Position numbers and translations under genes: made by a program | Notes under the pieces: generated by a model | Databases searched by the model: none | Seen by the model: only the letters and a program-made list of their open reading frames with translations | What the model was told of the DNA's origin: nothing | Source of the DNA: a virus | DNA: 46,260 bases | IMG/VR virus record: IMGVR_UViG_3300030104_004177 | Location: 1-46,260 of that record | Direction: 5' to 3' (one strand) | Part shown: one piece after another, positions 27,633 through 46,260 of the stretch | How the letters are laid out: each line of letters begins with the position of its first letter | Position numbering within the stretch: position 1 is the first letter of the stretch

Positions 27633-28820
27633 ATGGCAACAAACATAATCAAAATTAAAAGAACTACTGGTAGTACCGCACCCAGTTCTTTAAACGCAGG
27701 TGAGTTAGCTTTCTCAGGGGGAAGTGGCACACAGAGCAATATGGGTCAAAGACTATTTATTGGCGACCCAGCAAATTCAAACGCAGTAACAGTAATTGGC
27801 GGTAATTACTTTGCTAATCTTATGGATCATGCACATGGTACAACTACAGCAAGTTCTGTACTAATTGTAGATGCAAATAAGTCTGTCTCAGAGATAAGAA
27901 CAGCAGCATTACACTTAGGTACTTCTGGTTCAGATACTTTAGTCACAGCAACAGCAACAGAAATAAATTCAGCACTTGATGGTATTACATCTACAGCAGC
28001 AGAACTTAACTTATTAGATGGATCAGTTGCAAATACAGTTGTAAACGGTAAAGCAGTAATTTATGGTGGCTCAGGTCAACTAGCAGGTACTTTATCTACA
28101 GCTGCTCAAACAAATATTACAAGTGTAGGCACTCTTTCTGCCTTAACAGTAAGTGGAGCTATAGACTTAAATGCTACTACTCTTGATATTGATGCAACAG
28201 ATGATATTGATATTGATACTAGTGATACTACTGGTGGAATTGCTATTGGTACAGCAAACTCTGGTGTTCCAATATCTATTGGACACACAACATCCGAAGT
28301 TACAGTAAATGATAATTTAACAGTAACAGGTGACTTAGTTGTAAGTGGTACAACTACTACAGTAAATTCAACAGTTGTTTCAATTGCTGATCCAGTAATG
28401 GAAATAGGATCAAGTGCTTCAGATGATAACTTAGATAGAGGTATTAAATTTAAGTGGAGCGATGGTGGACCAAAAACTGGTTTCTTTGGATTCGATGATA
28501 GCTCAGGTAAATTTACTTTTATCCCAGACGCAACAGATACTAGTAGCGTATTTAGCGGTACTGCAGGAACAATCGTTGCAAACTTAGAAGGAACAGCAAC
28601 TCAAGCAACTACTGTTATGGGAGCTGGACAATCAAATATTACTTCTATACCAAACTTAGCAACAATCGGAACAATTACAACAGGTATTTGGAATGGCACA
28701 TCAATAGCAGTAGGACACGGAGGAACAGGACTTAGTTCAGTTGGCTCTTCAGGACAAATTTTAGTATCTAATGGATCAAGTCTCGGATATCAAAATATAG
28801 ACGGTGGAACATATAGCTAA
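27633..28820 (+). CDS. Tail fibre with Mtd-like N-terminus, 395 aa
   Basis: The 395-residue product begins with NIIKIKRTTGSTAPSSLNAG, followed by GELAFSGG and QRLFIGDP, the pattern of the Mtd-type or hyaluronidase-type N-terminal anchor module. Next come ATATEINSALDGITST and AAELNLLDG segments, common in marine phage fibres, then repeated fibre modules ISIGHTTSEVTVNDNLTVTG and SGTAGTIVANLEG that recur in the 1437-residue fibre and in the gene at 43336. The end is a trimer-type segment (GHGGTGLSSVGSSGQILVSN). It is probably a trimeric fibre with a conserved attachment end. Receptor binding is inferred. Confidence 0.82.
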   Translation: MATNIIKIKRTTGSTAPSSLNAGELAFSGGSGTQSNMGQRLFIGDPANSNAVTVIGGNYFANLMDHAHGTTTASSVLIVDANKSVSEIRTAALHLGTSGSDTLVTATATEINSALDGITSTAAELNLLDGSVANTVVNGKAVIYGGSGQLAGTLSTAAQTNITSVGTLSALTVSGAIDLNATTLDIDATDDIDIDTSDTTGGIAIGTANSGVPISIGHTTSEVTVNDNLTVTGDLVVSGTTTTVNSTVVSIADPVMEIGSSASDDNLDRGIKFKWSDGGPKTGFFGFDDSSGKFTFIPDATDTSSVFSGTAGTIVANLEGTATQATTVMGAGQSNITSIPNLATIGTITTGIWNGTSIAVGHGGTGLSSVGSSGQILVSNGSSLGYQNIDGGTYS

Positions 28821-29012: not shown

Positions 29013-29348
29013 ATGGCAAATACATTCAAAAACGCTGCCGCAGCAGCTACAGGTACATCTGAAGTTTCAGTTTATACTGTACCAAGCTCAACAACAACAA
29101 CTGTAATCGGACTTACTTGTGCAAATGTAACAAGTACTAGCCCTGTAAAAGTTAGTATTCGAGTGCTTGATAGTTCAGCTTCTGCACATTTCTTTATTGT
29201 AAAGAATGCAGAGGTCTTTGAAGGTGGCTCACTTGTAGCAGTGGGTGGAGACCAAAAACTAGTACTAGAAACAGGCGACATTATAAAAGTACAATCTGAC
29301 ACAGCCAGTTCAATAGATACAATCGTATCAGTCATGGAGCAATCATAA
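29013..29348 (+). CDS. Small virion beta-sandwich protein, 111 aa
   Basis: A 111-residue beta-rich product with VSVYTVPSSTTTTVIGLTC, a strand pair SIRVLDSSASAHFFIVKNAE, and SLVAVGGDQKLVLETGDIIK. The layout (strand, PSS or PAG turn, DIIKVQS, then a final strand) also occurs in the protein at 37294-37653, so the two are probably related small virion proteins placed just before fibre genes. No catalytic residues are apparent. It overlaps the large fibre start by one base. Confidence 0.68.
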   Translation: MANTFKNAAAAATGTSEVSVYTVPSSTTTTVIGLTCANVTSTSPVKVSIRVLDSSASAHFFIVKNAEVFEGGSLVAVGGDQKLVLETGDIIKVQSDTASSIDTIVSVMEQS

Positions 29349-32300
29349 TGGCATATATAGGTAAAAGACCTCAAGATACATTCCCAGCAACTAATGCTGT
29401 AACTTCTACTGTCATTGCAGAAAATGCTGTAGGCAGTTCTGAGATAGCAACTAATGCTGTAACAACTTTACAAATTGCAGATAATGCAGTAACAGCAGTA
29501 AAGATCGCTGAAAACGTAATATCTAGCAGAGAACTAGCAGCAAATACTATTGCAACAGGAAACATAGCAGACAATGCCGTAGACGGAACTAAAATAGCGC
29601 AGAACTCAATACTTACCCGACACATTGATGATGGACAAGTAACAACAGATCAACTTGGAGCAGACGCAGTTACAGCTGCTAAACTAGCTGATGATGCCGT
29701 TGTTACAGCTAATATAGTAGATAATGCGGTTACAGCTGCTAAACTAAATATATCAGGTAACGGAACAGCAGGTCAAGCAGTATTGTCTGACGGAGACGGT
29801 TCTTTTTCATATGGTGCTGGGGGCAAAACTGATGAAGAAGTTCAAGATCTTGTTGGAGCAATGTTCAGTTCAAATACTGAAACAGGTATAACTGCAACTT
29901 ATGAAGATAGTGATGGTACTATTGACTTAGTAGTTGGTACACTTAACCAAGATACGACAGGTTCAGCAGCTACACTAACAACAGCAAGAGCAATAGCAGT
30001 TACTGGAGCAGTAACAGGTACAGCTAACTTTGATGGTTCAGCTGATATATCAATTTCGGCTACTTTAGCAAATAATGCAGTTCTTACACAGCACATAGAC
30101 GATAATCAAGTCACAGCAGACCAAATAGCTGCAGCAACAATTACAACAACACAAATAGCCGCTAATACAATCGCTACTGGTAATGTGGCAGATAATGCAA
30201 TAGACGGCACAAAAATAGCTTCTAACAGCATACTTACAAGACATATAGATGATGACCAAATAACTGGAGATCAACTAGCAGATGCGCTTGAAGTAGTAAC
30301 TTCACTTGGAGTCGGTGGCGGCTCTACAAACGGTGTAGTTATTCAGCAAGGTGGTATTAAAATTAAAAATGGTGGTACACAATCTTATGTAGATCTGTAC
30401 TGCGAATCAAATAATGCACATTATTTAAGACTACAAGCCCCTGCTCACGCAGCATTTAGTGGTAATCCCACAGTAACTTTACCTGCTACAACAGATACAC
30501 TAGTGGGTAGAACAACAACAGATACTTTAACAAACAAAACATTAACAAGTCCAACAATTACAAATGCTAGTAATCCAAGTTTTACAGGAACAGCAACTTT
30601 TGGTGGTTCAGACGGAGTTAGTATTGCACAAGGTTTTGTTAAAATTAAAAATGGTGGCACACAGTCTTATGTAGATTTTTACTGTGAAGCTTCAAATGCT
30701 CACTACCTAAGATTACAAGCGCCAGCTCACTCTTCTTTTAGTGGTAATCCAACAGTAACATTACCGAATACTGCAGGTACTATAGCTTTAACATCAAGTA
30801 ATATTACAGGCTCAGCAGCAACTGTAACAACAGCAGCACAACCAAACATTACCAGTGTTGGAACTTTAACAAGTTTAACAGTATCTGGAAATACAACCGT
30901 TGGTGGAAACTTAACAGTAAATGGTACAACTACTACTTTAAATACTACAAACTCAGTAATATCAGACAGATTAATAGAATTAGGCAATGGAACTTCTGGA
31001 TCTCCAGCAAACGATATGGGTATTGTTATGGAAAGAGGAGACTCTGCAAATGCCTTTATGGGATTTGATGAAAGTGCAGATAAGTTTATAGTAGGAACAG
31101 GAACATTCACAGGAGCTTCAACAGGTGACTTAACAATCACAACTGGAACTCTTGTAGCAAACTTAGAGGGTAATGTAACAGGTAATGTAACAGGTAATTT
31201 AACAGGTACAGCTTCTGCAATCGCAGATAACTCTGTTACTTCAGCTAAGATAGTAAATGGTACTATCGTAGCAGCTGATATTGCAAACGCAACAATTACT
31301 ACTACTCAGATAGCTGCAAACACTATTGCAACAGGTAATGTAGCAGATAATGCTATTGACGGTACAAAGATTGCTCAAAATAGTATTCTTACTAGACATA
31401 TTGACGATGCTCAGGTTACAACTGACCAACTAGGAGCAGATGCTGTTACAGCAGCTAAACTAGCTGATGATGCAGTAGTTACTGCAAATATTGTAGATGC
31501 AAATGTTACTACAGCTAAAATAGCTGATGATGCTGTTACAGCCGCTAAAATTACAGACAACGCAGTAGGAGCAGCAGCACTAAATATATCAGGTAATGGA
31601 ACATCAGGACAAGCAATACTATCTGATGGCGATGGTTCTTTCTCATACGGATCTAGTGGTAAGACAACAGAAGAAATTCAAGACATTGTTGGAGCCATGT
31701 TCTCTAGCAATACTGAAACAAATATAACAGTAACTTATGAAGACTCTGACGGAACTATCGACTTAGTTGTTCCAAATGAACTATCAAGTGTTACAGAACT
31801 TGGTACACTAACTGAACTTCGAGTTGATGATATAAAAATTAATGGAACACAAATAGGACATATATCAGATTTAGATGCAATGTCAATCGCAGCAAATGGT
31901 GTAGTAACATTTACTCAAATACCAGTTTTACCAAACGATTCAATTACACAAGCATTTATAGCAGATGATGCTGTTGGAGCAGATCAACTTGCCGCAAACT
32001 CAGTAGTTTCTGCAAGTATTGTAAATGGAAGTATTGTATCAGCTGATATTGCTGCCAATACTATTGCTACTAGCAACATAGCAGATAACGCTGTAGATGG
32101 AAGTAAAATTGCTTCAAACTCTATTTTAACAAGACATATTGACGATAACCAAGTAACAGGTGATCAAATAGGAGATGATGTTGTACTAAGTGGTACAGGA
32201 GCTGTAACGGTTCCAAAAGGAACAACAGGACAGAGACCAAGTGGTACAGCAGGAGAGTTCAGATTTAATACTACAACTTCTAAATTTGAAGGACATAATG

Positions 32301-33661
32301 GAACTGAGTATGGAGAAATTGGCGGTGGTGGATCAAATGGATTCTTAACCGATATATTTGATGGAACAACAACTCCTGCTACAGACGGTAGCCGAGTTGC
32401 ATTTACTTTATCACAAGCTGTTTCTGATGAAAAGTTCTTAATGGTATTCATAGATGGTGTATATCAAGCCCATGATGCATACAGCGTAAGTGGTACAACA
32501 CTAACAATGGCAGATGCACCAGTTTCTGGTCGTGTACTTACTGTACATTCTGTATCAGCCGCAGTACAAGGTGATGGACTCAATGTTGATAACTTTAGTG
32601 GAGACGGATCAGATACAACATTTACACTTAGTCTGAATCCAACACATGAAAATAATACACAAGTTTACATAGACGGTGTATACCAGTTTAAAAATACATA
32701 CTCTGTATCAGGAACAACACTAACCTTCTCTACTGCGCCACCAAATGGTTCAGCTATTGAGGTAATGACACATAGTCAAACAACAGTAAATAATGCGGCA
32801 AGTTTAGCTGCAACAGCAATTTCTGGATTAAGTGAAGTAACAATCGCAGGTGCAGATCATGTAATGATATTTGATGCTACAGATAACGCACTAAAGAAAG
32901 GTTTAGCATCAGACTTAATTGAACAACTAACAACAGAGCAAGTACAAGATGTAGTTGGAGGAATGGTTTCAAGTAATACTGAAACAGGTATTTCAGTAAC
33001 TTATGAAGATGGCGATGGTACACTTGACTTTGTAATTGGAAGTGAAGCTATTGCAAGTTCTATGATTGCAAATAATGCAATTTTAACACAGCATATAGAT
33101 GATAACCAAGTAACAGCAGATCAAATAGCTGCAGCTACTATTACTACAACTCAGATCGCTGCAAATACAATAGCAACAGGAAACATTGCTGATAATGCGA
33201 TAGATAGCACTAAGATAGCTTCTAATAGTATTCTTACTCGACATATAGACGATGATCAAGTAACAGGCGATCAATTAGCTGACGCACTTTCAGTTGTAAC
33301 TTCTGTAACCACTCCATTGGTAGTAGCTTCTACTTCTGCGAGAATAACACAAGTAGCAATCACTTCTTCTAGTAATGCAGTAGCATGGGATGCCGCCGCA
33401 GCAGCAAACGCTTATCATGTTACAACAGAAAACACAACATTCTCTGCACCAAGTAATGCAGTTGAAGGAGCAATCATACAAGTAGAATTAGCGCAGGGCG
33501 GAACTCCAAGAACAATAGCGTGGAATACAGTCTTTGAATTTGCGGCAAGTACAGCACCAACTGTAACTGCAACAGCAAACAAAACAGATATTTTTACATT
33601 TAGATATAATGGTAGCGTCTGGCAAGAGATCGGACGTGTACAAAACTTAGCGCAGACATAA
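29348..33661 (+). CDS. Large modular tail fibre, 1437 aa
   Basis: The 1437-residue protein begins MAYIGKRPQDTFPAT and is built from repeated modules. Five blocks of a decapeptide repeat ([ND]-A-[VI]-T-x-x-x-[IL]-A-[DA]) contribute 12, 7, 12, 8 and 7 units by hand count. Between them lie three copies of a VGAMFSSNTETGI or similar ... YEDSDGTIDLVV module, two copies of KIKNGGTQSYVDxYCE ... LRLQAPAH, an NLTVNGTTTT fibre module shared with the gene at 27633, and two FIDGVYQ or YIDGVYQ ... YSVSGTTLT modules. The end (residues about 1329-1437) is a separate domain (SSSNAVAWDAAAAANAYHV ...) that is repeated at the end of the gene at 43336. A long trimeric shaft is the natural reading. Confidence 0.88.
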   Translation: MAYIGKRPQDTFPATNAVTSTVIAENAVGSSEIATNAVTTLQIADNAVTAVKIAENVISSRELAANTIATGNIADNAVDGTKIAQNSILTRHIDDGQVTTDQLGADAVTAAKLADDAVVTANIVDNAVTAAKLNISGNGTAGQAVLSDGDGSFSYGAGGKTDEEVQDLVGAMFSSNTETGITATYEDSDGTIDLVVGTLNQDTTGSAATLTTARAIAVTGAVTGTANFDGSADISISATLANNAVLTQHIDDNQVTADQIAAATITTTQIAANTIATGNVADNAIDGTKIASNSILTRHIDDDQITGDQLADALEVVTSLGVGGGSTNGVVIQQGGIKIKNGGTQSYVDLYCESNNAHYLRLQAPAHAAFSGNPTVTLPATTDTLVGRTTTDTLTNKTLTSPTITNASNPSFTGTATFGGSDGVSIAQGFVKIKNGGTQSYVDFYCEASNAHYLRLQAPAHSSFSGNPTVTLPNTAGTIALTSSNITGSAATVTTAAQPNITSVGTLTSLTVSGNTTVGGNLTVNGTTTTLNTTNSVISDRLIELGNGTSGSPANDMGIVMERGDSANAFMGFDESADKFIVGTGTFTGASTGDLTITTGTLVANLEGNVTGNVTGNLTGTASAIADNSVTSAKIVNGTIVAADIANATITTTQIAANTIATGNVADNAIDGTKIAQNSILTRHIDDAQVTTDQLGADAVTAAKLADDAVVTANIVDANVTTAKIADDAVTAAKITDNAVGAAALNISGNGTSGQAILSDGDGSFSYGSSGKTTEEIQDIVGAMFSSNTETNITVTYEDSDGTIDLVVPNELSSVTELGTLTELRVDDIKINGTQIGHISDLDAMSIAANGVVTFTQIPVLPNDSITQAFIADDAVGADQLAANSVVSASIVNGSIVSADIAANTIATSNIADNAVDGSKIASNSILTRHIDDNQVTGDQIGDDVVLSGTGAVTVPKGTTGQRPSGTAGEFRFNTTTSKFEGHNGTEYGEIGGGGSNGFLTDIFDGTTTPATDGSRVAFTLSQAVSDEKFLMVFIDGVYQAHDAYSVSGTTLTMADAPVSGRVLTVHSVSAAVQGDGLNVDNFSGDGSDTTFTLSLNPTHENNTQVYIDGVYQFKNTYSVSGTTLTFSTAPPNGSAIEVMTHSQTTVNNAASLAATAISGLSEVTIAGADHVMIFDATDNALKKGLASDLIEQLTTEQVQDVVGGMVSSNTETGISVTYEDGDGTLDFVIGSEAIASSMIANNAILTQHIDDNQVTADQIAAATITTTQIAANTIATGNIADNAIDSTKIASNSILTRHIDDDQVTGDQLADALSVVTSVTTPLVVASTSARITQVAITSSSNAVAWDAAAAANAYHVTTENTTFSAPSNAVEGAIIQVELAQGGTPRTIAWNTVFEFAASTAPTVTATANKTDIFTFRYNGSVWQEIGRVQNLAQT
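29393..29752 (+). repeat. Decapeptide repeat block 1, 12 units of 30 bp
   Basis: Twelve consecutive 30-bp units starting at residue 16 (NAVTSTVIAE, NAVGSSEIAT, NAVTTLQIAD ...) encode the [ND]-x-[VI]-x-x-x-x-[IL]-x-x pattern without gaps, ending at NAVTAAKLNI. Codons vary between units, so the repeat is clear in protein but weak in DNA. Confidence 0.85.
30074..30283 (+). repeat. Decapeptide repeat block 2, 7 units
   Basis: Seven units, from NAVLTQHIDD to DQITGDQLAD. It matches block 5 (33074-33283) at 66 of 70 residues, while 36 of the 70 codons differ synonymously. Confidence 0.85.
31169..31210 (+). repeat. 12-bp tandem repeat within fibre gene
   Basis: GGTAATGTAACA occurs twice in direct succession (31169-31192), followed by GGTAATTTAACA and the half unit GGTACA, encoding GNVTGNVTGNLTGT. 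This is the only short perfect tandem DNA repeat I noticed in this gene and may mark a recent slippage. Confidence 0.8.
31229..31588 (+). repeat. Decapeptide repeat block 3, 12 units
   Basis: Twelve units from NSVTSAKIVN to NAVGAAALNI. Units 4-9 match block 1 units 6-11 at 57 of 60 residues, with 31 synonymous codon differences by hand count. Confidence 0.85.
31937..32176 (+). repeat. Decapeptide repeat block 4, 8 units
   Basis: Eight units from DSITQAFIAD through NSILTRHIDD to NQVTGDQIGD, keeping the 30-bp phase. The unit NSILTRHIDD is also present in blocks 1, 2, 3 and 5. Confidence 0.85.
33074..33283 (+). repeat. Decapeptide repeat block 5, 7 units
   Basis: Seven units, NAILTQHIDD to DQVTGDQLAD. 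The same seven-unit series as block 2, exactly 3000 bases further on, with extensive synonymous change. Confidence 0.85.
33335..33661 (+). repeat. Duplicated fibre C-terminal domain, copy A
   Basis: The last 108 codons of the 1437-residue fibre (SARITQVAITSSSNAVAWDA ... WQEIGRVQNLAQT) match the last 108 codons of the gene at 43336-44001 almost residue for residue and at equal length (327 bases with stop). Both copies end immediately before a LamG/SPRY-like gene. Confidence 0.9.
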
Positions 33662-33662
33662 A

Positions 33663-35048
33663 ATGGCATTTTTAACAGAGGCAGCAAATAGAGGATCAAT
33701 ATCTACTGGGTATGATGTTGATAACTCTTTGAAGTTAGAGCAAGATAATACTGAGTATTTACATAAAACTCCAGGCTCTTCAGGAAATAGAAGAACTTTT
33801 ACTTTAAGTGCATGGATAAAAAGAACCGAGATAACTAGAGGTTCAGGTGGTGGTGATTATATCTTTCAAGCAGGAGATGGAGATTACAACCAAAACGATA
33901 GAACTCTGATTAAATTTAATCATGATGATACACTTTATTTTGGCGGTGGTAGTGCATATTTAATAAAAACAAATAGAGTTTTTAGAGATACTTCAGCATG
34001 GTATCATATAGCAATGATTGTTGATACTACAGATGGAACAGCAGGAGATAGATTAAAACTTTATATAAATGGAGTTAGAGAAACTGATTTAGCAACAAAC
34101 ACTAATCCAGATCAAAATTTTCAGTTTGCTTTTATGAAAGATGACAAGCATGTTATAGGATATAATCATACTGATTCATCAAATCCTGCTAGTATGTATA
34201 TTACAGAAGTAGTTTGGTTAGATGGCACAGCTGCAAGTATTACTGATTTAGGAAAGTTTGATAGTAATGGTATTTGGGTACCTATAGATGTATCAAGTTT
34301 ATCAGTAGGAACTAACGGATGTTATTTGGATTTTGAAGATTCTTCTAACTTAGGCAACGATGCTAGTGGTGGTACAGACTTTACCTTAAACAACATCACA
34401 GCAGCAGACCAGTCAACAGATACTTGCACTAATAATTTTTGTACTTGGAGTCCTTTGTGGACTTTTCCTATTGCAAGAACTCTTACTGAAGGGTTGACCA
34501 AAGTTACAGGTTCCTCAGCTTGGGGTGGAGTGAAAGGTAGTATAGGAGTTACTAATGGAAAATGGTATTGGGAAAATAAAACATCAGGAAACGACACTAT
34601 TATAGGTTGGCAGACTGATAATGTTACACCTCCATCAGGTACTAATGCTCATAATATAATAGATACAGTTGCACTTTACCAAGACGGAAATTATATATGG
34701 ATTAAAGATAGTACAAGCGGAAGAAATGATACAAGTGCATCAGGTACTAATGCTAGTGGTCAAATTATAGGATTTGCTTTAGATTTAGATAGCAGTCCAC
34801 AAACAGCAACTTTTTATAGAAATGGAAGTGCAATAGCTAGTGATGTAAACATAGATGGAGCTACAGGAAAAACATTGTTTCCAATGATGGCACAATATAA
34901 TCAAAATGCAGAAACTAATTTTGGTGGCTTTACAACTTTTTCAATTTCAAGTGCAGAAACAGATGACAACGGCTACGGAACATTCGAGTATGCACCCCCA
35001 TCAGGCTACTATGCTTTATGTAGTAAAAATTTAGCGGAGTTTGGATAA
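33663..35048 (+). CDS. LamG/SPRY-like adhesin, copy A, 461 aa
   Basis: The 461-residue product begins MAFLTEAANRGSISTGYDVD. Its first half has a concanavalin/LamG-like pattern (RRTFTLSAWIKRTEI, then TSAWYHIAMIVDTT and LKLYINGVRETDL), and its second half has a SPRY-like pattern (GKWYWENKTSG, then IIGFALDLDSSPQTATFYRNG). It ends NGYGTFEYAPPSGYYALCSK. A homologue with the same start and end is encoded at 44001-45428. The fold suggests carbohydrate binding. It follows the large fibre gene directly and probably works with it as a tip or receptor-contact protein. Confidence 0.85.
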   Translation: MAFLTEAANRGSISTGYDVDNSLKLEQDNTEYLHKTPGSSGNRRTFTLSAWIKRTEITRGSGGGDYIFQAGDGDYNQNDRTLIKFNHDDTLYFGGGSAYLIKTNRVFRDTSAWYHIAMIVDTTDGTAGDRLKLYINGVRETDLATNTNPDQNFQFAFMKDDKHVIGYNHTDSSNPASMYITEVVWLDGTAASITDLGKFDSNGIWVPIDVSSLSVGTNGCYLDFEDSSNLGNDASGGTDFTLNNITAADQSTDTCTNNFCTWSPLWTFPIARTLTEGLTKVTGSSAWGGVKGSIGVTNGKWYWENKTSGNDTIIGWQTDNVTPPSGTNAHNIIDTVALYQDGNYIWIKDSTSGRNDTSASGTNASGQIIGFALDLDSSPQTATFYRNGSAIASDVNIDGATGKTLFPMMAQYNQNAETNFGGFTTFSISSAETDDNGYGTFEYAPPSGYYALCSKNLAEFG

Positions 35049-36151
35049 TGGCTTATACAAATATAGATGATCCTTCAAAACATTTTCAAACTGTTCTTTG
35101 GACTGGTAATACCTCTGCACCAAGAAGTATAACTAATGATGGCAATAGTGATCTACAGCCCGATATTGTTTGGGCAAAAAACAGAACCACCAATGGCACA
35201 GACCATGAATTGTATAACTCAACTATGGGAACTGGAACAGAACAAAATTTACAACCTAATAATACAAATGGAAAAGGAACAGCCACTACTTATGGTCAAT
35301 TAACATCTTTTGACACAGATGGTTTTACAGTTAATGCTGGCGGAACGAATGATGATAAATTTAATGAAAATAATTCAGAGTTTGTTGCTTGGCAATGGAA
35401 AGTAAACGGTGGAACTACTAGCACAAATAGTGATGGAAATGTATCAGCAACAGTTCAAGCTAATACAACAGCAGGAGTATCTCTTGTTTTTTACACTGGT
35501 AATGGTACACAAACAGGGAAAACAGTAGGGCATGGTTTAGGTGCTGTTCCTAAAATGATAATATCTAAAGATAGAGATGGTACTTCTAATGTAGCAGCAT
35601 GGAGAATTTATCATGAAGCTATAGGAGCTACAAAATATATTAACCTAGATACAAGTAATGCAGGAACTTTTAACGATTGGGATAATACAACACCAACATC
35701 TTCAGTTTACTCAATAGGTGGGGATGGTGGTTATACTCCAACAAATACAAATAATACAGAATATATAGCTATGGTTATGACAGATGTACAAGGATTTTCA
35801 AAGATGGGAAGTTATGTTGGCAACGGCAATGCAAATGGTCCATTTGTTTATACAGGCTTCAAACCTGCTTTTGTACTGGCAAAAAATATAACCAATTCAG
35901 GTTATGATTGGACTATTGTAGATAATAAAAGAAGCCCCGCTAATGTAGTACAGAAATGGATTTGGGCAAATGCAAGTGGACCTGAATATGATGGGGCAGG
36001 TATAAGTTTACATGTGGATCTTTTGTCTAGTGGTTTTAAAATAAGATCAAGTAGAGCAGAAATAAATTTAAACGGAGCAACCTTTATATTTATGGCATTT
36101 GCAGAAAATCCATTTGTAACATCAACAGGAGCGCCGGCAACGGCAAGATAA
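35048..36151 (+). CDS. Marine phage fibre family protein (DUF7483-like), copy A
   Basis: The 367-residue protein begins MAYTNIDDPSKHFQTVLW, has SITNDGNSDLQPDIVWAKNR, QSFDTDGF-like TSFDTDGFTVNAGG, WQWKVNGGTTSTNSDGNVSA, GHGLGAVPKMIISKDRDGTS (about 164-183), YVGNGNANGPFVYTGFKPAF (about 257-276) and NGATFIFMAFAENPF near the end. I know this pattern from fibre proteins in many marine phages; I believe it is called DUF7483. It is preceded by the LamG-like gene with one-base overlap and followed by a fibre chaperone. A homologue starts at 45428. Confidence 0.87.
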   Translation: MAYTNIDDPSKHFQTVLWTGNTSAPRSITNDGNSDLQPDIVWAKNRTTNGTDHELYNSTMGTGTEQNLQPNNTNGKGTATTYGQLTSFDTDGFTVNAGGTNDDKFNENNSEFVAWQWKVNGGTTSTNSDGNVSATVQANTTAGVSLVFYTGNGTQTGKTVGHGLGAVPKMIISKDRDGTSNVAAWRIYHEAIGATKYINLDTSNAGTFNDWDNTTPTSSVYSIGGDGGYTPTNTNNTEYIAMVMTDVQGFSKMGSYVGNGNANGPFVYTGFKPAFVLAKNITNSGYDWTIVDNKRSPANVVQKWIWANASGPEYDGAGISLHVDLLSSGFKIRSSRAEINLNGATFIFMAFAENPFVTSTGAPATAR

Positions 36152-43335: not shown

Positions 43336-44001
43336 ATGGCAAATAGATTTCCTCTAATAGTAGATTCATCAAATCAGAACATCAAGGAACTACCTGATGG
43401 AGATAGCCTACTACTCGGAGATAGCGAAAAATTATTATTGGGTGATGGCACAGATTTACAACTGTACCATGATGGATCAAATTCATACTTAGCAAATAGT
43501 ACAGGAGCATTAAAACTAGCAACAGAAACAAGTGGTATTGCAATAACGATTGGACATACTACATCTGAAACTACAGTTGCAGATAATCTGACAGTAACAG
43601 GAAATGGCACTATATCAGGTAATGGAGTTATAACAGGCACAAGCACATTTACAGGAGTTGCAACAGCGTCAACTTCAGCAAAGATAACACAAGTAGCACT
43701 TACTTCTAGCAGTAATGCTGTTGCATGGGATGCTGCAGCAGCCGCAAACGCATATCATCTTACTACTGAGAATACAACTTTCTCAGCTCCAAGTAACGCA
43801 GTAGAAGGCGCAATTATTAGTGTAGAACTAGCTCAGGGTGGCACTGCTAGGACAGTTGCTTGGAATACAGTATTCGAGTTTGCAGCAAGTACAGCTCCTA
43901 CTGTCACCGCCACAGCAAACAAAACAGATATATTTGCTTTTCGATATAATGGCTCAGTCTGGCAAGAAATTGGCAGAGTACAAAATATGGCACAAACATA
44001 A
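43336..44001 (+). CDS. Short fibre sharing C-terminal domain with the large fibre, 221 aa
   Basis: The product begins MANRFPLIVDSSNQNIKELP, a start I know from marine phage fibres, then DGDSLLLGDSEKLLLGDGTD, LQLYHDGSNSYL, an ITIGHTTSETTVADNLTVTG module also found in the gene at 27633, and a 108-residue C-terminal domain almost identical to that of the 1437-residue fibre. It is followed, with one-base overlap, by a LamG/SPRY-like gene, as the large fibre also is. It is thus the short version of the first gene in a duplicated cassette. It lacks the decapeptide repeats. Confidence 0.82.
   Translation: MANRFPLIVDSSNQNIKELPDGDSLLLGDSEKLLLGDGTDLQLYHDGSNSYLANSTGALKLATETSGIAITIGHTTSETTVADNLTVTGNGTISGNGVITGTSTFTGVATASTSAKITQVALTSSSNAVAWDAAAAANAYHLTTENTTFSAPSNAVEGAIISVELAQGGTARTVAWNTVFEFAASTAPTVTATANKTDIFAFRYNGSVWQEIGRVQNMAQT
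43675..44001 (+). repeat. Duplicated fibre C-terminal domain, copy B
   Basis: Second copy of the 108-codon domain at 33335-33661, with equal length and only a few residue changes but many third-base differences (for example GATGCCGCCGCAGCAGCA against GATGCTGCAGCAGCCGCA for DAAAAA). Confidence 0.9.
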
Positions 44002-45428
44002 TGGAAGCATTACAACGGCTACATAACCGTGGAAGTGTATCTACGGGATATGATATTGATAACTCGTATAAAAATGAAGCAGACAATACTGAAAGAATGT
44101 ATCGTGCTTGGGGTGGAATTACTGCAAACACTCAAACATGGACAGTTAGCCTTTGGGTAAAAAGAACTGAACTTGGAACTTTACAACATATTTGGGGTGC
44201 TGGAGTAAGTGGTAATGATGTGTTATTACTTAGTTTTCAAACTGACAATACCCTCAAGTTTAGGTCAACAAAAAGTGGTGCTAATGATTGTGTTTATGTA
44301 ACCAACAGAGTTTTTAGAGATACATCAGCTTGGTATCATATTGTAACAGCTGTAGATACGACAAGCGGAACAGCAGGAAATAGATTAAGAATTTATATAA
44401 ATGGTGTTGAAGAAACTTCTTTTTCAACAGAAACAAATTTTGATCAAAATGATTTAACACTACATAATGCTAATAGTAGCTACATGGAAATTGGTACTGC
44501 TCTTGGTGAAGCAGATAGGTTTTGTGGATACATAGCAGAAGTTAATTCTATAACTGGAACACAATATGCGCCTACTGCTTTTGGTAAGTTTGATAGTGAT
44601 ACAGGTATTTGGATTCCTATAAAATTTGCAGGAAGTTATGCAGAAAATTCTATATTTTTAGAGTTTAAAGATTCTTCAAATTTAGGCTTAGATACTGCTG
44701 GCGGAGGTCAAAATTTTACACTTCAAAATATAACAGCAGCAGATCAAGCGACTGACACACCTACTAACAATTTTGCAACATTTAATGCACTTCAGCCTTT
44801 ACAAGCGAGTGGAGTTATAAGTGAGGGTGCTACAAAATTTTATACTGGTTCTAATTGGCAAACAGCAGTTTCATCTATAGCAGTATCAAGTGGTAAATGG
44901 TATGCAGAATTTTATCCTAATTCAAGCACAACTATTGTAGGATTTGTTGATGTTGAAGATGCTTATATACCACAAAACCATAGTGGTTATTATTTAGGCT
45001 ATGCAGGTGGCAATCAAAATAGGTCTGTAGGTATGCAAGGTAGTAATGGTGTAATTATGAACGATAATAATTCAGCGACTGGTGCTGGATTTGTAGGTGG
45101 CAATATTGTTTCTCTTGCTTTAGATATGGACAATAGGAAAGCATATTGGGCGGTAAATGGCACTTATGTTAATTCAGGCAATCCTGCTAATGGAACTAAT
45201 GGTGTTACTTGGGCAACATCTTCAACTCTTGGTGATCCTTGGACTGATGTTATAACTATGGGTGTAACTGGCCATACAAATATTATTTGGTTAGGTAACT
45301 TTGGTGGCTTTACCACAATGCCTATATCAAGTGGTAATGCGGATGCTAATGGCTATGGAACATTCGAGTATGCTCCACCAAGCGGGTACTATGCTTTATG
45401 TACCAAGAATTTAGAGGAGTACGGCTAA
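44001..45428 (+). CDS. LamG/SPRY-like adhesin, copy B, 475 aa
   Basis: This 475-residue homologue of the product at 33663-35048 begins MEALQRLHNRGSVSTGYDID, has a LamG-like half (TQTWTVSLWVKRTELGTLQH, then TSAWYHIVTAVDTTSG, LRIYINGVEETSF) and a SPRY-like half (SGKWYAEFYPNSS, then VSLALDMDNRKAYWAVNGTY), and ends NGYGTFEYAPPSGYYALCTK. The middle parts differ more than the ends, as expected if the receptor-contact surfaces diversify. It overlaps both neighbours by one base. Carbohydrate binding is inferred from the fold pattern. Confidence 0.85.
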   Translation: MEALQRLHNRGSVSTGYDIDNSYKNEADNTERMYRAWGGITANTQTWTVSLWVKRTELGTLQHIWGAGVSGNDVLLLSFQTDNTLKFRSTKSGANDCVYVTNRVFRDTSAWYHIVTAVDTTSGTAGNRLRIYINGVEETSFSTETNFDQNDLTLHNANSSYMEIGTALGEADRFCGYIAEVNSITGTQYAPTAFGKFDSDTGIWIPIKFAGSYAENSIFLEFKDSSNLGLDTAGGGQNFTLQNITAADQATDTPTNNFATFNALQPLQASGVISEGATKFYTGSNWQTAVSSIAVSSGKWYAEFYPNSSTTIVGFVDVEDAYIPQNHSGYYLGYAGGNQNRSVGMQGSNGVIMNDNNSATGAGFVGGNIVSLALDMDNRKAYWAVNGTYVNSGNPANGTNGVTWATSSTLGDPWTDVITMGVTGHTNIIWLGNFGGFTTMPISSGNADANGYGTFEYAPPSGYYALCTKNLEEYG

Positions 45429-46260
45429 TGGCTTATTCAGATATAAAAGACCCTTCAGCACATTTTCAAACTAAACTTTATACTGGAAATAATGCAGATA
45501 CTCATGCTATTACAAATGATGGTAATAGTGATTTACAGCCAGATTTAGTTTGGATAAAAAGACGAGACTATGATAATCAACCTGTTTTACACGATAGTAA
45601 TAGAGGAGTTACTAAATTTTTATCTACTGACAGAACTGATGTAGAAGGAACAATATCACCCACAACTAAATTTCAGTCTTTTGATACTGATGGGTTCACA
45701 ACAGGTAGCACTTCAGGAGCTTATAACGCCAGTGGAGAGCCTTTTGTAGCTTGGCAATGGAAAGCAAATGGTGGTACGACAAGCACAAATAACGATGGTG
45801 CAGTTACATCAACAGTCCAAGTAAATAGCGATGCAGGGTTTTCAATCCTAACTTACACTATGAATAGTGGCTCAAATGAAACAGTTGGTCATGGTTTAGG
45901 AGTAGCACCCAAAGTTATAATTTATAAAGCAAGAGAAAGAGGGGATTCTAATGGTTTTTGGCATTTTTATACAACTGTTTTAGATGGTTCTTTGGATTAT
46001 TTTAAACTTAACGAAGATGGATATAAATTTAATAGTTCTCTTTCTTCACCAACATCAACTACTTTTGTTGGAGGAGGTAGCAGTACAGCTTCTTATAGAA
46101 TTTTTGTAGCTTATTGTTTTGCAGAGGTGCAAGGCTACAGCAAGTTCGGCAAGTACACCGGCAATGGAAATGCAGATGGTCCGTTTGTCCATACAGGATT
46201 TAAACCTGCTTTTGTTTTAATTAAAGCTGATTCTAATTATAAGTATTGGTATATGTTTGA
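45428..46260 (+). CDS. Marine phage fibre family protein, copy B (3' truncated by window)
   Basis: The frame starts at ATG 45428 on the last base of the previous stop and is open to the window end, giving 277 codons. It begins MAYSDIKDPSAHFQTKLYTG, then AITNDGNSDLQPDLVWIKRR, FQSFDTDGFTTGSTSG, WQWKANGGTTSTNNDGAV, GHGLGVAPKVIIYKARERG and YTGNGNADGPFVHTGFKPAF, in the same order as the product at 35048-36151. The C-terminus lies outside the window. A receptor-binding or fibre role is inferred from family membership and the repeated gene order. Confidence 0.85.
   Translation, partial: MAYSDIKDPSAHFQTKLYTGNNADTHAITNDGNSDLQPDLVWIKRRDYDNQPVLHDSNRGVTKFLSTDRTDVEGTISPTTKFQSFDTDGFTTGSTSGAYNASGEPFVAWQWKANGGTTSTNNDGAVTSTVQVNSDAGFSILTYTMNSGSNETVGHGLGVAPKVIIYKARERGDSNGFWHFYTTVLDGSLDYFKLNEDGYKFNSSLSSPTSTTFVGGGSSTASYRIFVAYCFAEVQGYSKFGKYTGNGNADGPFVHTGFKPAFVLIKADSNYKYWYMF

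Follow-up and report, generated by a model that had tools for sequence, protein, structure and literature searches.

Repeated segments of a marine phage tail fibre keep their protein sequence while their codons agree at the random level

Results

The tail-fibre gene and its repeats

The stretch of DNA analysed here (the window, 46,260 nucleotides) is, judging from its terminase and tail tube protein, most probably a fragment of a T5-like marine siphophage. The terminase is homologous to those of T5-like siphophages at up to 49% identity across 97% of its length, and the tail tube protein at 38–40% identity across 70%; although alike in these two proteins, the phage, which we call W together with its fibre, is distant from the named T5-like (Demerecviridae-type) members. 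Unlike these core genes, the W fibre matches the fibres of T7-like cyanophages, pelagiphages and a Gordonia phage at 30–42%. It also matches PHROG tail-fibre families across 4–7 stretches (phrog_892, E 2.8e-53, 6 stretches; phrog_28766, 4.1e-41; and others), where the likeness lies in the profile matches, whereas the repeat itself is without characterised function. L-numbers denote related contigs, L001 and L002 being from IMG/VR. A core of 40 residues is present five times in the fibre gene, in copies 1 to 5 of the main repeat, alongside a second and a third repeat type:

29348..33661, + strand: tail-fibre open reading frame, 1437 aa, which holds the repeats (PHROG tail-fibre families; Pfam DUF4183)
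29537..29722, + strand: repeat copy 1, aa 64-125, 40-aa module at 29537-29656; pairs with copy 3 (95% aa identity, 27/62 codons identical)
29669..29935, + strand: second repeat type, copy one, aa 108-196; 81% aa identity to 31505-31771, codon z +1.2
30068..30304, + strand: repeat copy 2, aa 241-319, module at 30158-30277; pairs with copy 5
30332..30484, + strand: third repeat type, copy one, aa 329-379; 82% aa identity to 30614-30766, codon z +1.9
30614..30766, + strand: third repeat type, copy two, aa 423-473; pairs with 30332-30484
31313..31498, + strand: repeat copy 3, aa 656-717, module at 31313-31432; of the L001 copy 3 DNA lineage
31505..31771, + strand: second repeat type, copy two, aa 720-808; pairs with 29669-29935
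32051..32170, + strand: repeat copy 4, the 40-aa module, aa 902-941; shares 34/40 aa with copy 1
33068..33304, + strand: repeat copy 5, aa 1241-1319, module at 33158-33277; not at that position in L001 or L002

A sequence search of the PDB returned a single short match (34 residues, 6e3c, E 2e-4), and an AlphaFold2 model of the module as a monomer was of low confidence (pLDDT 69, pTM 0.33). The module presumably plays a structural role in the fibre shaft.

The C-terminal domain of the fibre, about 112 residues in length (33325-33661), recurs at 43665-44001, the end of gene 43336-44001, with 92% amino-acid and 79% DNA identity. It is also found in L002, L015, L076 and the Pelagibacter phage HTVC202P (67.6%), and is shared by different tail proteins. 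The genes that follow each occurrence (33663 and 44001, then 35048 and 45398) match the same relatives in the same order; the neighbourhoods 33663-36151 and 44001-46258 suggest a putative duplicated three-gene fibre block.

Codon identity between copies

An earlier note on this DNA had reported that the blocks 30074-30283 and 33074-33283 share 66 of 70 residues with 36 synonymous differences, and that 29543-29722 and 31319-31498 share 57 of 60 with 31, and a codon-by-codon recount reproduced these figures exactly. The first pair has 30 identical codons and 80.0% DNA identity, the second 26 and 78.9%. Both extend further: the first covers aa 241-319/1241-1319, with 74/79 residues identical, and the second aa 64-132/656-724, with 63/69. 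This protein similarity far exceeds chance. High protein identity combined with many silent differences mimics recoding against recombination, and saturation supplies the correct null for codon identity. We modelled it as random synonymous choice for the same proteins, simulated at the codon usage of this genome.

The simulations yielded 33.0±4.0 identical codons for the first pair and 28.0±3.7 for the second, with DNA identities of 79.6% and 80.1%, close to the values observed. The longest exact DNA run was 14 bp in the first pair, against a simulated mean of 16.9 (p_short 0.41), and 20 bp in the second, against 15.6 (p_short 0.89). Permutation of codons within copies likewise placed the W repeats at random expectation. 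Over its full extent the copy 2/copy 5 pair has 35 identical codons where 36.4 are expected, copy 4 has 17 in common with copy 1 where 15.2 are expected, and all module pairs in W lie at random codon identity (z -1.3 to +0.9); the combined z for W is +1.0. Since this is the level of random synonymous choice, the silent sites are saturated and not diversified past chance, which rules out a recent duplication of the W copies.

Age relative to close relatives and protein constraint

The fibres of L001 and L002 are 77–87% identical to W and to one another. On a scale of silent similarity with 0 set at random and 1 at identity, W scores 0.47 with L001 and 0.39 with L002, against -0.05 (CI -0.22 to 0.12) for the 2/5 and 1/3 copy pairs. 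As the W pairs keep no silent similarity while L001 and L002 keep 39–47% of theirs, the duplications predate the splits between W, L001 and L002, and the great age that the earlier note had offered as one of two explanations therefore holds as a relative age. If silent similarity is lost exponentially, the separation of the repeats would lie at least two to three times as far back as these splits. Copies 1 to 4 lie at corresponding positions in L001 and L002 with their codon similarity mostly kept, and copies 1 to 3 are each matched closely in codons by the copy at that position in one or the other, copy 3 sharing 47/62 codons with copy 3 of L001.

Rates were estimated by NG86, together with scaled codon identity, as dS from YN00 mostly breaks down numerically at saturation. 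For the two repeat pairs dN was 0.043 and 0.041 and dS 1.99 and 2.3 (about 2 or more, hence saturated), compared with dN of 0.069 and 0.046 and dS of 0.51 and 0.31 for orthologues over aa 1-100. This comparison, which the earlier note had proposed, thus places the synonymous divergence of the repeats well above that of the orthologues, and its claim of strong protein conservation is borne out: with dN of 0.04 at a dS of about 2 in the repeats and 0.05–0.07 at 0.3–0.5 in the orthologues, replacements have ceased to accumulate while silent sites have been randomised. When 39 copies drawn from many phages are aligned as protein, 15 columns are invariant, around the core AANTIATGNIADNAVDGTKIAQNSILTRHIDD, and the halt in replacement is accordingly put down to protein constraint.

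The gene at 27633-28820 keeps 0.27–0.60 of its silent similarity, and neighbouring genes at 85–90% amino-acid identity are unsaturated. The repeats would therefore require unusually strong constraint, a point that counts against the explanation favoured below. The C-terminal domain of gene 43336-44001, at 88–90% amino-acid identity to L002, L015 and L076, has saturated codons, like the repeats.

Module sharing and exchange between positions and phages

We counted 62 occurrences of the 40-aa module across 24 contigs. Where residues are shared, copies in one gene agree in 0.503 of codons and copies on different contigs in 0.502, with 0.446 expected, so that a copy within the same gene is neither closer nor further than the copy of an unrelated phage. 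The best DNA match of every W copy is a copy in another phage, that of copy 5 being in L004 by codon match (27/34, z 4.2) and no paralogue within the W gene, and by best matches the gene as a whole is a mosaic. Nucleotides 188-374 are 94% identical to L015, where the matching tract sits in a position-3 context: position 3 of L015 has 50/62 codons in common with W copy 1 and 28/62 with W copy 3. In trees built on 186-base tracts, several nodes of which are weak, this L015 tract groups with copy 1 of W, L002 and L154, all of one DNA lineage. In L001, a stretch of some 60 bp lying upstream of copy 3 is almost identical to copy 4, unlike W copy 3. From the L015 position-3 lineage and the copy 4 to copy 3 tract of L001 it follows that repeats recombine in this family despite their divergence, and we infer that recombination is the route by which tracts have moved. 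Between W copies the median module identity is 0.86, a little above the 0.80 measured against other contigs, which leaves room for weak homogenisation at the protein level.

Repeat pairs with below-random codon identity in other phages

The most negative among 835 pairs surveyed in related loci were found in L011 and L186, outside the window. The L011 pair is a tandem with a period of 86 aa (aa 887-959 and aa 973-1045 of ORF L011:2797; 91–96% aa identity), in which 16/68 codons are identical against 28.4 on permutation (28–32 expected; p 1.4e-4) and the threonine codons ACA and ACT are exchanged nearly throughout. The L186 pair, aa 72-150 against aa 686-764 (+614) of the +2 ORF, belongs to a different repeat family, with 17/67 codons identical against 28.7 permuted (p 1.35e-4). 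Two such p-values out of 835 tested pairs are weak evidence. The orthologues of the L011 tandem in L021, L022, L030 and L038 are alike, and because orthologous copies retain strong codon similarity the four cases of L011, L021, L022 and L030 are not independent. Hand-summed codon matches in the L011 family are about as frequent within genomes (84/284) as across genomes (268/852), so the anti-similarity is inherited and not maintained in each genome. L010 and L014 have a single copy of the L011-type unit, of the copy-2 lineage, and searches among named phages found no match to the tandem.

Codon avoidance throughout the clade of long-fibre phages, at which L011, L030, L021, L022 and L186 had hinted, was not supported when 30 further ORFs from newly fetched relatives were tested (mean z +0.46, nine negative). 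Isolated cases are possible, and it is improbable that either the L011-family tandem or the L186 pair has been actively recoded against repeat recombination. The L011-type tandem copies of L175, L177, L180, L182 and L190, with codon z from +2 to +6, are either recent or homogenised, so that this fibre type has both young and old repeat pairs.

Discussion

We consider it highly probable that the W repeats are old modules under strong protein constraint, with saturated silent sites, that are shared and swapped among marine phages. The repeats would be copies of a structural fibre module on which purifying selection at the protein level is very strong, and the copies, or the lineages from which they came, may have parted so anciently that their synonymous sites became fully saturated. 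With the module common to marine phages, homologous recombination would now and then shift tracts between positions and phages.

A somewhat unlikely alternative is recent acquisition, in which copies from divergent phages were united only lately in one gene, and the silent divergence would then be that of the donors and not the age of a duplication within the gene. The absence of copy 5 from its W position in L001 and L002 and its closest match in L004 speak for it, as do the mosaic of best matches along the W gene and the exchange between repeat positions in L015; however, copies 1 to 4 occupy the same positions in L001 and L002 with most of their codon similarity, and must predate those splits.

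The other explanation raised in the earlier note was selection against repeat loss, whereby repeats that differ in DNA escape recombination and codons are driven apart between copies. DNA identity near 80%, exact runs no longer than 14–20 bp, and the two below-random pairs in L011 and L186 are what might be expected from it. Nevertheless, we regard it as very improbable, and for W the proposal does not hold. Codon identity and exact runs in W sit at the random level and not under it, the most closely spaced pair in the gene (aa 329-379/423-473) is also its most codon-similar, and copies within the gene are no more different in codons than copies in different phages, which rules out active codon avoidance in W. 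Recombination between repeats does occur, as seen in L001 and L015, the anti-similarity of the L011 family is inherited and not upheld in each genome, and the mean z of the new clade members is positive. A search of the literature returned nothing that bears directly on whether codon divergence among repeats of one gene is under selection.

That independent low-complexity repeats converged on the same sequence would leave synonymous sites without a signal of common origin, as in the W copies, but it can be dismissed, since stretches of 60–79 residues at 94–95% identity, with extended flanks and the same residues in many phages, are too long and too specific, and close relatives retain codon similarity copy by copy.

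Under the favoured explanation of old, constrained and exchanged modules, a fibre module has been kept almost invariant while its silent sites were fully randomised and it was shuffled among marine phages. Fewer shared codons than chance in W would have provided a counterpart in nature to the codon scrambling by which engineers stabilise repeats; one family elsewhere, that of L011, hints at such scrambling, without replication in new relatives.

Perhaps the closest parallel is with the long tail fibres of T-even phages, for which modular exchange by recombination between conserved motifs has been described (Tetart et al. 1998, as cited in PMC3797505). In that account, as in W, conserved segments act as crossover points and segments are exchanged between phages and positions, although the T-even case concerns the distal adhesin locus of T4-like phages, whereas in W the repeated segments lie along the fibre of what is probably a T5-like marine phage. 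A second parallel is the fibritin of T4-like phages, in which ancient module swapping was followed by slow vertical divergence (PMC3797505); W resembles it in that modules were rearranged long ago and then diverged vertically under constraint. While swapping in fibritin has ceased (PMC3797505), exchange between repeat positions of the W type is still visible in L001 and L015. The W fibre is thus in keeping with what is known of how tail fibres evolve by modules (PMC3797505 and references therein).
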